DNA from: Streptococcus oralis
Lineage (GTDB): Bacteria; Bacillota; Bacilli; Lactobacillales; Streptococcaceae
Direction: 5' to 3'
Length of the DNA: 64,000 nucleotides
Assembly: GCF_021497885.1 (NCBI RefSeq)
Contig: NZ_CP046523.1
Coordinates: 1,345,501 to 1,409,500 of the forward strand
Part shown: positions 1,078-10,522 of the stretch, one piece after another
Position numbering within the stretch: position 1 is the stretch's first letter
Layout: the number at the start of each line of letters is the position of its first letter
The notes under the pieces: generated by a model
Seen by the model: only the letters and a program-made list of their open reading frames with translations
What the model was told of the DNA's origin: nothing
The model's database searches: none
Made by a program: the position numbers and the translations under genes

Positions 1078-2268
1078 TTATTTCACAGCTTCTTTCAAAG
1101 CATCTACCTTATCCAAACGTTCCCACGGAAGGTCAATATCTGTACGTCCCATGTGTCCATAAGCCGCTGTTTGACGGTAAATTGGCCGTTTGAGATCAAG
1201 CATTTGGATAATTCCTGCTGGGCGAAGATCAAAGATTTGACGCGCCGCTTTTTCAAGCTTGCTTTCAGCTACTGTTCCTGTACCAAAAGTATCGATACGA
1301 ACAGAAACAGGCTGGGCAACACCGATAGCGTAGGCCAATTGCACTTCTGCCTTCTTAGCAAGACCTGCTGCAACGATATTCTTGGCAATGTAGCGAGCTG
1401 CATATGACGCAGAACGGTCCACCTTCGTCGCATCCTTACCAGAGAAGGCACCACCACCATGGCGAGAGTAGCCACCATACGTATCCACGATGATCTTACG
1501 ACCAGTCAAACCTGAGTCTCCTTGAGGTCCACCGATTACGAAGCGACCAGTTGGATTGATGAAGAATTTTGTCTGTTCATCCAAGTAAGAAGCTGGAATT
1601 ACTTCTTTGATAACCTTGTTAATCACATCATTGTGAATTTGTTCATTGCTAACTTCTGGGTCGTGCTGAGTTGAAATAACGACTGTGTCCACACGTACTG
1701 GACGGTCATTTTCATCATACTCAACTGTAACTTGCGATTTGGCATCTGGACGCAGATAGCTGATTTCACCCGACTTACGAAGTTCTGCTAAACGACGAAC
1801 CAACTTGTGGCTGAGTGAAATTGGCAATGGCATGAGCTCTTCTGTTTCGTCCACTGCAAATCCAAACATAAGACCTTGATCTCCAGCTCCAATCAAATCA
1901 AGCGGATCTTGATCTGCATTTCCACGGACTTCCAAGGCTTCGTTAACACCTTGGGCGATATCCGGTGACTGCTCAACAAGTGATGGATGAACTCCAACTG
2001 TTTCCGCAGAAAAACCATATTCTGCATTCGTATAACCAATCTCTGCAATGGTATCACGAACCACACGGTTAATATCCACATAGGCATTTGTAGAAATTTC
2101 ACCAAAAACATGGACTGAACCAGTATATACAGCAGTCTCAGCAGCAACGTGCGCTTCTGGATCCTCTGCTAAAATAGCATCCAAAATCGCATCTGAAATT
2201 TGGTCTGCAATCTTATCCGGATGCCCCTCAGATACAGATTCAGACGTGAATAATTTACGTTCTGACAT
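1078..2268 (-). CDS. metK: S-adenosylmethionine synthetase
   Basis: A 396-residue enzyme of normal length that makes S-adenosylmethionine from methionine and ATP in the cytoplasm. Family signatures are present: the N-terminal [18 protein letters not shown] with the ATP- and metal-binding residues, [10 protein letters not shown] in the middle, and [17 protein letters not shown] near the C-terminus. It starts at the ATG preceded by an unusually G-rich Shine-Dalgarno (AAGGGGGG, 2277-2284). That element is also the 3' strand of an apparent SAM-responsive S_MK leader, so the product probably represses its own translation. It is monocistronic, with its own promoter near 2525 and a terminator at 1043-1075. 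Confidence 0.97.
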
Positions 2269-2274
2269 AAAAAT

Positions 2275-2510
2275 GTCCCCCCTTAAAAAATATTGTTATA
2301 GAGTTACAAAGTACTGATAGGTATTTCTATAGTCTAAGAGTTACGACACGAAAGAAATAAAAACGATACTTTTTTATTTCTGAAGCTAGTAAGGCGCATA
2401 GGGTGACCGCATTATAGCGGCAACCGTAGAAGGACGAGCGACTTTGGAGCCGTCATTCTTTGCGAGTTACAAAGTACTGATAGAAATTTCTACCATCTTA
2501 TCGGGACTAT
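2275..2510 (-). promoter_or_regulatory. S_MK (SAM-III) type riboswitch leader of metK, expanded
   Basis: On the minus strand the leader begins GTCCCGATAAGATGGTAGAA (RNA 5' part, about 2507 down to 2488) and continues through a TAGAAATTTCTA hairpin to ATCAGTACTTTGTAACTC (ending at 2464). This lines up with the E. faecalis S_MK core as I remember it: GUUCCC, GAUGG, hairpin, CUUGUAACC. The Shine-Dalgarno GGGGGGAC (2275-2282) can pair with GTCCC (2503-2507), the expected SD/anti-SD switch. The two halves are about 180 bases apart, whereas a compact S_MK box needs only a few. The extra stretch carries a partial second copy of the core. Family assignment is from memory and was not computed. Confidence 0.65.
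2301..2483 (-). repeat. Direct repeat flanking the extra segment in the metK leader
   Basis: Twenty identical bases, GAGTTACAAAGTACTGATAG on the plus strand, occur at 2301-2320 and 2464-2483, with weaker similarity beyond (gtatttctatagtc against aaatttctaccatc). Between them lie 143 bases. These include an AT hairpin (GAAATAAAAA at 2354-2363 with TTTTTATTTC at 2371-2380) and a GC-richer stem around 2405-2430. The arrangement could come from a segmental duplication that diverged or from insertion of a small element. Confidence 0.7.
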
Positions 2511-2521
2511 ATAACCTTATC

Positions 2522-2530
2522 ATTATACCA
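2522..2530 (-). promoter_or_regulatory. Extended -10 promoter of metK
   Basis: TGGTATAAT on the minus strand at 2530-2522. Transcription should start near 2515, just upstream of the GTCCC arm of the S_MK leader, giving a leader of about 245 bases. Confidence 0.7.
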
Positions 2531-4228: not shown

Positions 4229-7200
4229 TTAATCATCTTCACGCTTGCGACCAAGAAGCAACGCTGCTAGACCTGCAAGAAGAGAACTAGTCATTAGACC
4301 AGTGAGTGAAAGCGGTGCAGTGCTACCTGTGTTTGGTAATGTAGCTTGTTTTGCCTTTTCTCCTGCTGGACTTTGAGCTGGTGGATTCTCTTCAGGTTTT
4401 CTTGGTTGTTCTGGTTGAAGTCTATTTGCCTGATTATTATCAGCCCCCTGCTCTTCCCCTGGCTTCACTGGTGGAACTGGATTTGGTTGAGGTGCTGGTT
4501 GAGGTACTGGTTGCGGAACCGGCTGTGGTTGTGGACTAGGATCTTGCTTAGCTTCAAAGACCCACTTACCGACGAAGGTTAGATTTGCCCCCTCTTCCAC
4601 TTCTTGGTAACCTAAGAATGTCCATGTACCATTTGCAACAGCAACTTCTACAGGCATCGGTGCTTCTGGAACAAAAGCAATCGCTGAAGAAGAACTTGTA
4701 GTATATGTTCCACTTTGTGGAAGTAAGCTCAATACTTCTGCTGGCAAGTTGTTGTCTGCGGTTGCACTTTCGAAGCGGTAAGTCACTTGATAGGTTTCAG
4801 TTACTGGTGCAGGCAAAACATTAACTGGTACAGGAACTTCAGTAGAAGAACCATCTGGATAGTCAACTCGTACCTTACCTGTGTAAGTACCTGATTTTGT
4901 TGTGTCAATTTGACCTGCAGGTGTGATATCAACTACCTTAGTGCCAGCTGGAAGGCTTGACAAGTTCGTCACATTATCGGTCAAGTCAGGTGTTTGTCCA
5001 ACCTTGATAGTTTCTTCCGTTACTTGAGGCGTATAAGTTTCAGCATTTGTCGGATTCGCCTTGAATTCCCACTTACCGACGAAGACTACATTAGCCTTAT
5101 TGACTACAGCGCTAGCTGCGTCATAAGCCTTGAAGGTCCAAGTGCCGTCGTTCACAGTATCTGTGTATGTGGTTTGAGATGGTTGTTGAGCGGAAACAGT
5201 GTCACCATTCACATAAGTTGCACTGTCGCTTGGTGTCAAAGCGCTGATTTCTGCTGGAAGTACTTTTCCTGCTGTCTCACTCTCGAAGCGGTAATTAGCT
5301 TGGTACTTCTTGGCTTCAAAGGACCATTTCCCTACAAACTCCACATTTGCCTTGTTGACAACGGCACTAGCTGCGTCGTAGCCCTTGAAGGTCCATGTGC
5401 CATCGTTCACATCATCTTTGTAAGTGATTTCCGCTGGTTGCTGAGCGGAAACAGAGGCACCATTCACATAAGTTGCACTGTCATTTGGAGTCAATGCTGC
5501 GATGGCTGCTGGAAGAGACTTACCTGCTGTCTCACTCTCGAAGCGGTAAGTAGCTTGGTACTTGTTGGCTTCAAAGACCCATTTCCCTACAAATTCTACA
5601 TCGGACTTGTTGACCACAGCGCTAGCTGCGTCGTAACCCTTGAAGGTCCATGTGCCGTCGTTCACATCATCTTTGTAAGTGATTTCAGCTGGTTGCTGAG
5701 CGGAAACAGAGGCACCATTCACATAAGTTGCACTGTCACTTGGAGTCAATGCTGTGATGCCTGCCGGAAGAGCCTTACCTGCTGTCTCGCTCTCGAAGCG
5801 GTAACTTGCTTGGTACTTGTTGGCTTCAAAGGCCCATTTTCCTACAAACTCTACATTTGCCTTGTTGACCACAGCGCTAGCTGCGTCGTAACCCTTGAAG
5901 GTCCATGTGCCGTCGTTCACATCATCTTTGTAAGTGATTTCAGCTGGTTGCTGAGCGGAAACAGAGGCACCATTCACATACGAATCACTGTCACTTGGAA
6001 GCAGCGTTGCGATACCTGCTGGAAGAGACTTACCTGCTGTCTCACTCTCGAAGCGGTAAGTAGCTTGGTACTTGTTAGCTTCAAAGGCCCACTTACCTAC
6101 AAACTCAACATTTTCCTTGTTGACAACGGCACTAGCTGCGTCGTAACCCTTGAAGGTCCATGTGCCGTCGTTCACATCATCTTTGTAAGTGATTTCCGCT
6201 GGTTGCTGAGCTGAAACAGAGGCACCATTCACATATGTTGCACTGTCGCTTGGAGTCAATGCGGCGATGGCCGCTGGAAGAGCCTTACCTGCTGTCTCGC
6301 TCTCGAAGCGGTAACTTGCTTGGTACTTGTTAGCTTCAAAGGTCCATTTTCCTACAAACTCCACATTTGCCTTATTGACAACGGCGCTAGTTGCATCATA
6401 ACCCTTGAAGGTCCATGTGCCGTCGTTCACAGTATCTGTGTAGGTCGTTTGCGCTGGTTGTTGAGCGGAAACAGAATCACCATTCACATATTTTGCACTG
6501 TCGCTTGGAGTCAATGCTGCGATGGCTGCTGGAAGAGCTTTACCTGCTGTTGCGCTTGCGAAGCGGTATGTAGCTTGGTACTTGTTGGCTACAAAGGCCC
6601 ACTTACCTACAAACTCTACATCAGCCTTGTTGACAACGGCGCTAGCTGCATCGTAACCCTTAAAGGTCCATGTGCCATCATTCACAGTATCTGTGTAGGT
6701 CGTTTGCGCTGGTTGTTGAGCTGAAACAGAATCACCATTCACATATTTTGCACTGTCGCTTGGGGTCAAGGCTGCGATGGCTGCTGGAAGAGCCTTACCT
6801 GCTGTTACGCTTGCGAAGCGGTAACTTGCTTGGTACTTGTTGGCTTTAAACTTCCACTTACCTGTGAAGGTCAGATCAGCCTTTCTCACAATCTTACTTT
6901 TGGCATCGTAACCATCGAAAGTCCAGGTACCGTCGTTCACATCATCTTTGTAAGTCTTTGTTGTCGGCTCTTCTGGTACAACTTTTTGCGTGTTGTAATA
7001 GCTTGAGCTATCTTTTGGTGCTTTCTTCTGGATAAATTCAGGCAAAGCAACACCTGATGTAACACTTACAAAATTATAGCTTACATGATGCGGTCTAGGC
7101 GTTACTTCCCAGATACCTGTGAATGTCACGCGCTTGCCATTATATGTCGCATTCTTCTGATCATAACCTTTGAAGGTCCAGACATAGTCTTTTTCTTCTT

Positions 7201-10200
7201 CAACTACTGATTCTTTAGCAGGTTGTTTGGCTACAATGGTGTCACCAACCTGATAAGAAGACTCATCATTTGGAAGCATTCCCAAAATACTTTGTGGCAA
7301 TGGAACACGTGAGTCAGAAGATTTGAATACATATTCTGGATTTGGAGTAGGCACCCAGCTTCCAAGGAAAGTCTGTCTACCTTTTGCTACAACGATTTTT
7401 TCTTTATCGTATCCTGCAAATGTCCAAGTTACCTTGTTTGCTGTATCAACATAAGTCGTTTCACTTGGTTGCTCAGCATCTACTTCTGTAGGGAACACAC
7501 CCATCTTATAATCAATTGGGTTTTTCGGAGTCAACTTGGTGATATGATCTGGTAATACGAAATCAGGATTAGTTGATTGGAACTGATAGTCTATACCATT
7601 TGGCGTAAAGCTCCAAGATCCTGTGATAGTCTTCACTTGCGTACCTGCAATAGCTTTTCCGTATCTATCTGCATCAAAACCATGGAAGGTCCATGTACCT
7701 GTCGGAACAGTTACTGTGGATGTGTCAAGTTTGCTTGCATCTTTGTAGTCGTCAGCTCGTGCAACGAAATCAATGCCAGCTGGAAGCATATCGCGAATCT
7801 TACTTGGAAGAGGATAAGCAGGAGTCGAGTTAGTAAACTTATACTCTAGTCGGTAGATCTTATCCGCCTGATCGGTAGGAACCAAGATCCATTTTCCTCT
7901 AAAGGTAATGTCTTCTGTTCCGACTGTTTTCACACGTGGAGAAATAGTCGTATTATCATATTCATAGTAATCATCAAATACCCAAGTCCCTCGGCCATCA
8001 GGATCCTCAAATCTTGTTTTAGACGGCATTTTAACGCGAGCTTTTTCACCCTTGACAAATTCTCTTTCGTAAGTGATTAAATTATACAAAGTTGATGGCG
8101 GATAAATCGTTTGACCAGAATCATCTTTTGAATCTGTATAGAAATCATAGTAAACACTATGCCTGTTCGGTTCAAATTTCCAATGAACAGTGTAGGTAGA
8201 ATCCTCATCGTCAGCTGGTTTCTCAACGTCCTCCTTTCGCTGAGGAATCTGCTGAGGAACCCATGTACCATCATTTTCATTATCGACATATGAACTGAGA
8301 TATTGAATTTCATTATAGACATTATCAGAATACTCATCTGGAGATGTCGTGATAGGAGCTGGAATTTGTGCCTTCAAATCATCAGGAATGGTCTTCCCTG
8401 GAGTATCACTGACAAAGTCAAAGGAAACTGTCTTATCGCGGTATGGAGTGAAAGACCAAGTACCTGTAAAGAGAACTTTATCTTGATTAACTACCTTGTT
8501 ATTAGCGTCATAACCTTCAAATTTCCAAGTTCCCTTGTTGACAAAGTCCATGTAGGTCGTCTTCAGGGGAGCTTTTGCAAGGACAGTATCGCCATTACTA
8601 TAGTTTTCTCCAGTGCTTGGAATATAAGTCGTGATTTCTTCTGGGAGAGACAGGCTAGGGTCTTTGCTGACAAACTTATAGTTTCCTGGGTAGGTTCCCG
8701 GTGTAAATGTCCAAGTACCTGTGAACTTGAGATTCCATCCATCGTGCTCCCAGTCGCTCACTGGTTTTTTATCAAAATCATAGCCCGAAAAGTTCCAAGT
8801 ACCACCGTTAGCTGCATCATAGTAGGAATTATTAAGCGGTTTAACAGACTGAACTATATCCTTGCCTTTCGGATATGTCTTCCTATCCATATATTTCCAT
8901 TCACTTGGTGCATATACCGGCTTCAGATTATTGATCTCAGCAGGTAGTGCTTTGCCAGCCGTTCCACTGATAAACTCATAGGTCGGTTTCCGAGGAACTG
9001 GTGTAAATTTAAACATCAATGGGATCGTAACTTTTGGCAATTCCCCATACGTAGCCGCCCGCTCTAGTTCACGAGAGTACGTTAAATCTATTGCATCTTC
9101 CTCGTGCGTCCAATTTCCTTCATGTTCTGCATCATAAAAGGGTTTGTAGACATTTTGAACTTCATCGTAGCCCGTCAAAGCAACTCTCGAATCTATTAAA
9201 TCTTTAGGTAAATGCTCATCGCGTTTATCAAACTGATTTAAAGAAAGCTTGTAATCGTATAGCTTACTTTCTAGATCCTTTATCTCCTTAGGAAGAGGTA
9301 AGTTATATTTGTCGTAGAATGAAGTCTTAGGACTACTTGGTAACTTATAAAAATTATCAAAATCAAACTCGTTCATAGCCTTGTAGGATACAATGACATC
9401 CTCAAAGTATTTCCAAGTTCCTACAAACTCCACATCGCCATTGTTTGCCACTTTACTTGGAGCATCAAAGCCAGTCAAAGCCCAATAGCCTTTTCGGTTA
9501 GGATATTCTTCTGAAGTATAAAAAACATAGTGAAATTCTTGTGGCTTTACTACTTCACCCTCAGCAAATCTTCTTTTATCTTCTGGACTCCAGTTTGCAA
9601 CATAAGCTGGCGGAGTTTTTCCAGGTGAGCCATTAACCGCTCTATAGGTAGCCTTGTATGGTGTTGGTGCATATTCCCACTTACCTGTGAAGAAAACATC
9701 ATCTTTGTCAATCACCTGACTATCATGGTCATAGCCCTTAAAGGTCCATCTACCACTTCCATCATACTCTACATAAGTTGTTTCAGTTGGCTGGATGGCC
9801 TTTACTTTATCGCCCTTTTTGTAGATTTTTGTGTCTTCTGGCTTCAAGTAGTTCAGAGTAAGCGGAGTTGTTTTTCCTGGTGTAGCACTTTCAAACTCAT
9901 AAAGTGCACTATGAGGAGTTTTATCCTGATCTGGGATGAACTTCGGATTTTTATCACGAAGACCAGAATTAACAAAAGTCACTAGATTGCGATAAACTTT
10001 ATCAATTTCTTCTTGCTTTGTTGCAGTTTGAAGCACGCCATCAGCAGCTGTCATTACGCCATTCAAGATTTCTAGACTATCGTCTGTCTTACTTGAAAAG
10101 TCCTTGCTGCGCAAGTTTTTGAGGTAGTTCTCTAAAGTGCTCTTGTTTAGACTAGCATTTACTGATGCTGGTTGAGCAGTGGCAGTGGCTGCAGCTGGCT

Positions 10201-10522
10201 GGCTAGCTCCTGTAGCTGCCTGAGCATTTTTAAAAGCAGTCGAATCTGTTGCTTGACTTGTCTCTGTCGCAGCAGGTGCAGCAGACTTCAAAGCAACTTG
10301 GCTTTCTTTCTGGGATTCTGCTCGCTCTGCTGCAGAAGAGCCCACCGAGACCTGATTCTCTGCTTTATTCTCCACTTGTTCAGTAGCCGTAAGCTCATCA
10401 GCTTGAGCTACTTGAGCGGCTCCAAGCGCCGCAGGCGCAAACAAAAATCCAATCGCAAGGGATACAGTAGCAACTGACAATTTGCGGATTGAATATTTTA
10501 TCTTTCTATCCTGAAAAAACAT
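4229..10522 (-). CDS. Giant LPXTG-anchored SHIRT-repeat surface protein
   Basis: A 2,097-residue cell-wall protein. It begins with a YSIRK signal peptide (KYSIRKLSVATVSLAIGF, about residues 9-26), then an Ala/Gln-rich stretch and a short helical region (about 130-190). From about 200 to 1825 I count 18 consecutive SHIRT-like units ending in variants of TWTFKGYD...F(V/T)GKW. The first 11 are diverged and of uneven length; the last seven (1231-1825) are near-identical 85-residue copies. A Rib-like domain (1826-1909), one more SHIRT unit (1910-1995), a Pro-rich wall segment and LPNTG (2062) with a membrane helix and RKREDD tail complete it. SHIRT arrays form rigid rods that project ligand-binding parts from the surface; the ligand here is unknown. 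AGGAGG lies 8 bases before the ATG. I do not recall such a gene at this spot in pneumococcus, suggesting accessory DNA. Confidence 0.93.
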   Translation of the reverse strand: MFFQDRKIKYSIRKLSVATVSLAIGFLFAPAALGAAQVAQADELTATEQVENKAENQVSVGSSAAERAESQKESQVALKSAAPAATETSQATDSTAFKNAQAATGASQPAAATATAQPASVNASLNKSTLENYLKNLRSKDFSSKTDDSLEILNGVMTAADGVLQTATKQEEIDKVYRNLVTFVNSGLRDKNPKFIPDQDKTPHSALYEFESATPGKTTPLTLNYLKPEDTKIYKKGDKVKAIQPTETTYVEYDGSGRWTFKGYDHDSQVIDKDDVFFTGKWEYAPTPYKATYRAVNGSPGKTPPAYVANWSPEDKRRFAEGEVVKPQEFHYVFYTSEEYPNRKGYWALTGFDAPSKVANNGDVEFVGTWKYFEDVIVSYKAMNEFDFDNFYKLPSSPKTSFYDKYNLPLPKEIKDLESKLYDYKLSLNQFDKRDEHLPKDLIDSRVALTGYDEVQNVYKPFYDAEHEGNWTHEEDAIDLTYSRELERAATYGELPKVTIPLMFKFTPVPRKPTYEFISGTAGKALPAEINNLKPVYAPSEWKYMDRKTYPKGKDIVQSVKPLNNSYYDAANGGTWNFSGYDFDKKPVSDWEHDGWNLKFTGTWTFTPGTYPGNYKFVSKDPSLSLPEEITTYIPSTGENYSNGDTVLAKAPLKTTYMDFVNKGTWKFEGYDANNKVVNQDKVLFTGTWSFTPYRDKTVSFDFVSDTPGKTIPDDLKAQIPAPITTSPDEYSDNVYNEIQYLSSYVDNENDGTWVPQQIPQRKEDVEKPADDEDSTYTVHWKFEPNRHSVYYDFYTDSKDDSGQTIYPPSTLYNLITYEREFVKGEKARVKMPSKTRFEDPDGRGTWVFDDYYEYDNTTISPRVKTVGTEDITFRGKWILVPTDQADKIYRLEYKFTNSTPAYPLPSKIRDMLPAGIDFVARADDYKDASKLDTSTVTVPTGTWTFHGFDADRYGKAIAGTQVKTITGSWSFTPNGIDYQFQSTNPDFVLPDHITKLTPKNPIDYKMGVFPTEVDAEQPSETTYVDTANKVTWTFAGYDKEKIVVAKGRQTFLGSWVPTPNPEYVFKSSDSRVPLPQSILGMLPNDESSYQVGDTIVAKQPAKESVVEEEKDYVWTFKGYDQKNATYNGKRVTFTGIWEVTPRPHHVSYNFVSVTSGVALPEFIQKKAPKDSSSYYNTQKVVPEEPTTKTYKDDVNDGTWTFDGYDAKSKIVRKADLTFTGKWKFKANKYQASYRFASVTAGKALPAAIAALTPSDSAKYVNGDSVSAQQPAQTTYTDTVNDGTWTFKGYDAASAVVNKADVEFVGKWAFVANKYQATYRFASATAGKALPAAIAALTPSDSAKYVNGDSVSAQQPAQTTYTDTVNDGTWTFKGYDATSAVVNKANVEFVGKWTFEANKYQASYRFESETAGKALPAAIAALTPSDSATYVNGASVSAQQPAEITYKDDVNDGTWTFKGYDAASAVVNKENVEFVGKWAFEANKYQATYRFESETAGKSLPAGIATLLPSDSDSYVNGASVSAQQPAEITYKDDVNDGTWTFKGYDAASAVVNKANVEFVGKWAFEANKYQASYRFESETAGKALPAGITALTPSDSATYVNGASVSAQQPAEITYKDDVNDGTWTFKGYDAASAVVNKSDVEFVGKWVFEANKYQATYRFESETAGKSLPAAIAALTPNDSATYVNGASVSAQQPAEITYKDDVNDGTWTFKGYDAASAVVNKANVEFVGKWSFEAKKYQANYRFESETAGKVLPAEISALTPSDSATYVNGDTVSAQQPSQTTYTDTVNDGTWTFKAYDAASAVVNKANVVFVGKWEFKANPTNAETYTPQVTEETIKVGQTPDLTDNVTNLSSLPAGTKVVDITPAGQIDTTKSGTYTGKVRVDYPDGSSTEVPVPVNVLPAPVTETYQVTYRFESATADNNLPAEVLSLLPQSGTYTTSSSSAIAFVPEAPMPVEVAVANGTWTFLGYQEVEEGANLTFVGKWVFEAKQDPSPQPQPVPQPVPQPAPQPNPVPPVKPGEEQGADNNQANRLQPEQPRKPEENPPAQSPAGEKAKQATLPNTGSTAPLSLTGLMTSSLLAGLAALLLGRKREDD
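5048..6832 (-). repeat. Seven tandem 255-bp repeats coding for SHIRT domains
   Basis: Seven in-frame copies of a 255-bp unit (for example, the same landmark recurs at 5299 and 5554). Each codes for 85 residues running from QA(S/T)YRFESETAGK to VEFVGKWAFEANKY. Two sub-types alternate in part: AQTTYTDTVNDG versus AEITYKDDVNDG. Such identity between neighbouring copies points to recent expansion by recombination, and copy number can be expected to vary between strains. Confidence 0.93.

Follow-up and report, generated by a model that had tools for sequence, protein, structure and literature searches.

The metK leader in the stretch of Streptococcus oralis DNA analysed here (64,000 nucleotides, the window) raises the question of why the two sides of a SAM-III (SMK) riboswitch lie so far apart, and whether the repeated sequence between them amounts to a second aptamer. 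A sequence-only reading of the window had recognised a SAM-III leader with distant arms and had offered two origins for the distance, a natural expanded form or an insertion or duplication that left two competing partial aptamers. The answer reached here is that a SAM-III translational switch probably carries one unit of a dispersed, tandem-forming repeat, which was inserted at GUAAC with the 3′ half of the aptamer duplicated around it and which the switch would tolerate as a passenger. This answer rests on the two SMK halves, the family membership of the insert, the filled and compact leaders of relatives, the tandem units at the same place, and the retention of a complementary 3′ half. The novelty of the finding is the repeat family, more than any two-aptamer switch.

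Architecture of the metK leader

SMK riboswitches work by thermodynamic exchange between an ON fold and a SAM-bound OFF fold in which the Shine–Dalgarno (SD) sequence is paired, according to the accessible text of PMC6152003. The metK leader of the window is of this type and occupies 2515-2275 of the minus strand; the interval from 2275 to 2530 proposed by the sequence-only reading contains it, the leader itself starting at 2515. Its parts were located by eye and with R2, a covariance model built from 34 compact streptococcal metK leaders:

2522..2530, minus strand: extended −10 TGGTATAAT, directly 5′ of the leader, read by eye here and in the leaders of relatives
2507..2515, minus strand: GTTATATAG, a 5′ strand able to pair with CTTTGTAAC of either 3′ half, a putative P0-like alternative
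2503..2507, minus strand: anti-SD GTCCC, sole copy (R2 match and sequence reading)
2490..2500, minus strand: 5′ strands of P2 (TAAG) and P3 (TGGTAG) (R2 model and match)
2495-2490/2483-2478, minus strand: P3 hairpin TGGTAG/CTATCA (sequence reading)
2464..2483, minus strand: proximal 3′ half, CTATCA (P3) and CTTTGTAACTC (2474-2464) (R2 match 2515-2452, 43.5 bits)
2301..2320, minus strand: distal 3′ half CTATCAGTACTTTGTAACTC, CTATCA (P3) and CTTTGTAACTC, the same as the proximal copy over 20 nt
2275..2282, minus strand: SD arm GGGGGGAC, partner of GTCCC (GGGAC 2279-2275) (R2 match 2352-2275, 44.8 bits)
1078..2268, minus strand (ATG 2268-2266): metK, S-adenosylmethionine synthetase, an ORF of 396 aa (tblastn 99% to S. 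mitis and Streptococcus sp. M334)

Read along the minus strand, TGGTATAAT is followed by GTTATATAGTCCC, the P3 hairpin, CTTTGTAACTC, about 127 nt ending in GTCGTAACTC, then CTATAGAAATACCTATCAGTACTTTGTAACTC, AAGGGGGGAC and the ATG of metK. The anti-SD and the SD are 227 nt apart, in keeping with the earlier description of two arms that are both present and far from each other. The label P0 for the pairing of GTTATATAG was borrowed from an SMK review, and its position in the window leader is presumed. The extended −10 is absent from the list returned by a promoter scan that demanded a −35 element as well. An upstream ORF read by eye in the window (ATG GTA ... TTG TAA), which ends at the UAA of the SMK box, was rejected as chance, since some relatives lack it or have it in another frame.

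The two R2 matches make both SMK halves real, the next best match over 12 kb scoring 12.1 bits; the sequence-only reading had tied its assignment to a covariance-model match for at least one half, and R2 matches both. The search with the Rfam SAM-III model that it had proposed gave a different result: Rfam at its cut-offs found nothing in the window, and SAM-III was found neither around metK at E values up to 10 nor at metK in the whole-genome search. This failure is explained by the compact streptococcal leaders, since even these score under the SAM-III cut-off. Aligned over the full length of the Rfam model, they reach 29.6–39.7 bits (9 of 16 Streptococcus loci matched), below the cut-off of 45, which is exceeded by four Enterococcus/Lactobacillus-type leaders with 53.8–69.2 bits (20 loci given, 16 of them from Streptococcus). 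It is the cut-off, not the fold, that leaves the streptococcal clade out of RF01767, and repeat-bearing, divergent leaders explain how the metK switch of these streptococci can escape an annotation pipeline.

The fold itself carries the marks of the class. In the 34 compact leaders, four of the six P3 pairs are changed on both sides, and P2 and the anti-SD helix GTCCC/GGGAC are invariant. The window leader shares with the SAM-III/SMK box (RF01767) the anti-SD GUCCC, P2 and P3, UUGUAAC, and an arm GGGGGGAC that overlaps the metK SD, and what sets it apart is about 160 extra nucleotides, the doubling of the 3′ half, and the presence of a repeat unit, either in the linker or in the P3 loop. The most fitting classification is a SAM-III leader from a divergent streptococcal clade, with one unit of a dispersed structured repeat lodged in it.

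The insert is surrounded by a direct repeat of 38 nt (84% identity, copies 163 nt apart), inside which lies the exact 20-nt core that had been noticed in the sequence before. Only the 3′ half of the aptamer is duplicated (the 3′ strands of P3 and P2 with UUGUAAC). Two anti-SD partners, as claimed earlier, do not exist, the second copy having no anti-SD and GTCCC being single, and of the two competing partial aptamers there remain two 3′ halves with only one 5′ half for which they compete. If this 5′ half, GUUAUAUAGUCCCGAUAAGAUGGUAG, pairs with the proximal half, the unit would lie in the linker before the SD; if it pairs with the distal half, the unit would lie in the P3 loop. In either fold, SAM would close GUCCC on GGGAC and block metK translation, and the unit would be a passenger in positions that the switch tolerates. 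Calculated fold energies are −57.6 kcal/mol with the proximal half and SD, −56.2 kcal/mol with the distal half and SD, and −61.8 kcal/mol unconstrained; the predicted minimum-energy folds make no choice between the two halves.

SAM-III is placed among the classes without tandem arrangements in the available part of a review on tandem riboswitches (PMC9481103). The window leader resembles the tandem riboswitches treated there in having more than one folded RNA domain, but its extra domain belongs to a dispersed repeat and is not a demonstrated ligand-binding domain, and its aptamer is only half doubled.

metK leaders in related streptococci

metK is present in all 284 Streptococcus genomes searched. 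The leader survey comprised 162 metK-leader loci, with few of the more distant species among them; 161 of these loci, from 160 genomes (G062 entered twice), could be parsed. The distance from anti-SD to SD is 63–81 nt in 91 compact leaders, 105–107 nt in four, 139–143 nt in five, and at least 200 nt in 61. All but one of these 61 (L368) hold at least one match to R1, a model made from metK units. No unit was found in the five leaders of 139–143 nt. In the four leaders of 105–107 nt, the P3 loop holds a piece resembling the 3′ end of the unit, and they look like scarred leaders that kept a remnant. Units stand in tandem in eight leaders, with two in G084, G163, G275, and G095, at least two in G197, three in G034 and G029, and four in G237.

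Among named relatives, the unit occurs in the metK leaders of Streptococcus sp. M334, two S. mitis, S. sinensis, and two S. cristatus; those of S. shenyangsis, Streptococcus sp. F0442, and a third S. cristatus are compact. The layout in the window is more than chance because the identical arrangement recurs in relatives. Both of the origins first offered for it apply, a natural long form and an insertion with duplication. SAM-III leaders with zero, one, two, three, or four units, in the linker or the P3 loop, form a natural series for the tolerance of the switch to separation of its halves.

When a 3′ half is counted as kept if it forms at least five of the six P3 pairs with the single 5′ strand, 22 of the 61 long leaders retain both halves, 16 only the distal one, and 15 only the proximal one; the remaining eight fall outside the strict pattern and by eye have GGT(A/G/T)CTTTGTAAC. 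The unit therefore sits in the linker where the proximal half is used and in the P3 loop where the distal half is used; in other leaders, that of the window included, it is flanked by two halves either of which could serve. It might be supposed that two complete alternative aptamers compete where both halves are kept and thereby tune or slow the SAM response. The 22 leaders with both halves would suit this, as would the window, whose halves pair equally with the 5′ strands (six of six P3 pairs each, energies within 1.4 kcal/mol). Such competition is nevertheless rather unlikely, as the leaders with a single half indicate that two are not required, and the duplicated 20 nt may be a mere by-product of recombination.

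Several single leaders deviate in their own ways. G062 has two metK copies, on C10 (L097) and C1 (L156), one with a unit in its leader and one compact, which reflects either a duplication or a mixed assembly. The metK leader of Streptococcus entericus (L017) contains TTTTAGGGGGG(A) twice, once about 90 nt ahead of the real SD, and the extra copy is a possible second SD-like partner of the anti-SD. The sole unparsed leader of the 162 (L286, from G045) has the SD arm GGGGGGGC in place of GGGGGGAC, which breaks one anti-SD pair. In the metK units of L106 and L108, the hairpin H3 is lengthened to a perfect inverted repeat, ACTAGCTTCAGAAATAAAAA / TTTTTATTTCTGAAGCTAGT, and the usual CGCGTC end is replaced, which gives the impression that one arm is a copy of the other.

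The repeat unit and its family

The extra segment is natural, as had been considered, yet it is not a nondescript linker, being a unit of a genus-wide Streptococcus repeat family. Its parts in the window are as follows, where R3 is a broader model of the family than R1:

2339..2467, minus strand: repeat unit, 129 nt, 44% GC (R1 160 bits, R3 128.1 bits, covariation; the sole R1 match in the window)
2395..2464, minus strand: three-way-junction part, closing stem 2464-2461/2398-2395
2458-2451/2436-2429, minus strand: H1, part of the three-way junction, one mismatch in the window
2425-2417/2410-2402, minus strand: H2, part of the three-way junction
2354..2380, minus strand: H3 hairpin, arms 2380-2371 and 2363-2354, loop AGTATCG (fold and covariation)
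2339..2347, minus strand: conserved 3′ end GTCGTAACT, which repeats the landing-site GTAAC

In an alignment of 33 metK units, 34 pairs are supported with 94.9% of cells paired, and 12 pairs are changed on both sides as against 1.4 after shuffling. In the wider alignment A2 (82 distinct units), 89.0% of cells are paired as against 59.9% in shuffles and at most 45.6% in slid controls, and double-changed cells number 801 as against 240 (0 of 500 shuffles). The counted cells are not independent, and A2, like A5, was fitted to the model, a bias in favour of the structure. Of four sense-strand units that were folded, three have z values of −3.0 to −8.0; the fourth, from S. cristatus, has a z of −1.1 and is no better than its shuffles. 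Units of the family measure about 127–130 nt and are tandem as whole units, and in many of them H3 is followed by a CGTC/TGTC tag, CGTCGTAA or TGTCGTAA.

R1 matches were obtained in 242 of 284 Streptococcus genomes (E up to 0.01), and across the order in 63 of 395 genomes, 61 from Streptococcus and two from one other genus. R3 matched 43 of 295 genomes across the order, 42 from Streptococcus and one from another genus, and gave nothing in 248 other genomes taken from across the phylum. In ten chosen genomes, R3 (E up to 0.001) gave 5, 9, 10, 13, at least 134 (G098), 13, 15, 14, 12, and 19 matches, the figure for G098 being a lower bound from 150 scored candidates. The copies of G098 (L399-L418) are often oppositely oriented neighbours 30–370 nt apart, with diverse stems and a median pairwise identity of 0.5 (51 copies). 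In the genome of the window, further copies follow prfC and argS (one whole and one partial after the latter), and one lies antisense between two genes that we take to be metF and pnp.

The metK unit of the window is 91–98% (91.5–98.4%) identical to four metK units of mitis/sanguinis type, 65–70% to another four from streptococci that are further away, and 62–63% (62.1–63.3%) to three whole other copies in its own genome. As metK units are alike across species and unlike the copies of their own genome, the unit has long been resident at metK, and it could have acquired a role there. The family is little known and looks mobile.

None of the families in Rfam 15 matches the unit above its cut-off; sub-threshold scores were given by S35 (29.6 of 69 bits in L195) and the M-box (19.2 of 44 bits in L217). 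By the groEL units of L193 and L195, the hairpin with the sub-threshold S35 score (Staphylococcus sRNA 35, 29.6–29.8 of 69 bits) stands directly after CTTACTAGCTC, in the place of H3. Other identities were rejected. The Streptococcus sRNA SSRC8_2 has partial matches in L217 on a different stretch, downstream of the units, and asd RNA (RF01732, in the table seen of PMC2864571) is present in Rfam and has no match to the unit. For an IS200/IS605-derived element, the Y1 transposase (PF01797) was found in 7 of 12 genomes, and the link is unsupported in view of G177, G029, and G281, which have 13–15 copies and no PF01797 match, and of G011 and G111, which have the protein and no unit match. For a phage- or plasmid-borne element, blastn (words of 11) with a 137-base unit found nothing in the phage or plasmid collection.

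Small interspersed repeats are known from this group: the accessible text of the pneumococcal D39 genome paper names BOX, RUP, and SPRITE (PMC6212727), and that of the S. mitis B6 paper names BOX and RUP (PMC2828477). As far as the available parts of Croucher 2011 (PMC3049150) go, RUP is about 107 bp, RUP and SPRITE are AT-rich (27.5% and 28.1% GC), SPRITE has terminator-like sequence, BOX is built of A, B, and C modules, and thorough de novo repeat searches in other species were not made in that study. The unit resembles these repeats in being small, interspersed, and non-coding, with RNA-like folds and in mitis-group genomes, and it is like BOX in that some BOX elements lie at gene ends or within riboswitch leaders. 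It differs from their published descriptions in its 129 nt, its 44% GC, its tandem arrangement as a whole, and its genus-wide spread. The S. suis modules boxE and boxF measure 115 and 133 nt. The CGTC REPs of PMC3733652, in the text available, have 20–40 bp with a single stem of 8–9 bp and a loop of 4–5 nt, and the phyla named do not include Firmicutes. GTAG/CGTC REP elements share with the unit a hairpin beside an unpaired CGTC/TGTC tag and a location near gene ends, but the unit is larger and has three hairpins, which leaves it outside the CGTC class. In the accessible literature, no described repeat matches the unit; the long streptococcal linker as such may already have been noted in the original SMK papers of 2006–2011. 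What is exposed is thus a structured repeat family absent from Rfam and undescribed in the parts of the repeat literature that were searched.

Insertion sites and maintenance of the fold

The survey of sites started from 98 matches in 62 loci, which gave 55 arrays (a place reached through two loci was entered once), five of them metK leaders. Of the 50 non-metK arrays, 31 start exactly on the last base of a stop codon, and the number rises to 33 if a shift of one base is allowed (stop codons of ORFs with at least 100 aa on the same strand). The loci were best-scoring or hand-picked, and several of them are the same gene in related species. None of the five metK arrays starts at a stop codon. 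In the background of 40 loci, 94 of 2168 TAA triplets outside ORF interiors (4.3%) are stop codons. The genes ahead of arrays include prfC, argS, groEL, dnaK, nrdE, pheS, sufB, obgE, and purF, and one for a CorA-like protein that scores under its curated cut-off. In G098, which is rich in copies, stop codons mark the start of only 3 of 40 arrays over 389,616 bases, and the preference therefore holds only for long-lived sites. At argS 3′ ends (30 loci, by eye), units follow the stop codon directly in 18 of 27 parsed genomes and are missing in nine. Between genomes, the same hairpin variants stand behind differing first halves in the argS arrays (L253-L257, L261, L267-L269, L271-L276, L278-L280), which look like mosaics. 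TAAC/GTAAC stands at both ends of the unit; in metK, the matching landing site is the invariant GUAAC of the SMK box.

A fold selected as RNA is expected to tolerate G·U far better than A·C on its own strand. The units show 29 G·U against 44 A·C in 1952 cells, and those of G098 alone 42 against 53 in 1167. The control helix was SMK P3, the loci containing too few tRNAs and SMK P1 having been left out because its G·U pairs are mostly constant; in 47 distinct compact leaders it has 25 G·U against 1 A·C in 282 cells, and it differs from the units with Fisher P = 1.6e-7 (cells not independent). In the metK units alone, G·U exceeds A·C (44 against 18 of 1117 cells), with 27 of the 44 coming from one almost constant pair. 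Because G·U is as rare as A·C despite strong covariation, the pairing statistics suggest a fold maintained in DNA, or through copying from one arm to the other, and not a regulatory RNA. The repeat may accordingly spread or persist as folded DNA, since its helices lack an RNA-like preference for G·U over A·C. Together with the stop-codon habit, these DNA-like statistics make the movement and maintenance of the repeat a testable question.

A wider proposal is offered tentatively and is somewhat doubtful as a whole: the units may form an undescribed class of streptococcal folded DNA cassettes of about 127 nt, which insert 3′ of TAA(C), favour stop codons at long-lived sites, stack, and swap hairpin modules, with the three hairpins maintained in single-stranded DNA and not in RNA. 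Tandems would then follow from the GTAAC at the end of each unit, itself a landing sequence, and the SMK riboswitch would have been colonised because its invariant UUGUAAC gives the same landing site.

Alternatively, the unit could act as a further regulatory RNA domain, either an orphan aptamer or an element bound by a protein, and the metK leader would then be a two-input device together with SAM-III. Its three-way junction and hairpin, the conserved junction and loop sequences, the strong covariation, the 91–98% identity of metK units across species, and the z values of three of the four sense-strand units are what such a domain would display. The idea is improbable all the same, as the family also follows stop codons of unrelated genes and is dispersed intergenically in G098, 91 of 161 related metK leaders lack the unit, a G·U bias of RNA type is absent, and the S. 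cristatus unit folds like its shuffles. That the insertion broke the switch and made metK constitutive in these strains, as the wide separation of anti-SD and SD and the loss of recognition by Rfam might indicate, is very improbable given that a 3′ half is retained in all filled leaders, with six of six P3 pairs in 51 of the 53 that fit the pattern, and that the SMK blocks show no decay. Repeats within riboswitch leaders also have a precedent, as a BOX repeat lies between the two T boxes in the pneumococcal trp operon, an arrangement described as compatible with function in the accessible text of PMC3049150.

Elsewhere in the window, a 2097-aa ORF (4229-10522, minus strand) lies upstream of a DEAD-box helicase gene on the same strand. 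Its C-terminal end is of the LPNTG type, and it contains around a dozen almost identical repeats of about 85 residues (YRFESETAGKALPA...TWTFKGYDA...FVGKW); it looks like a repeat-built surface protein.
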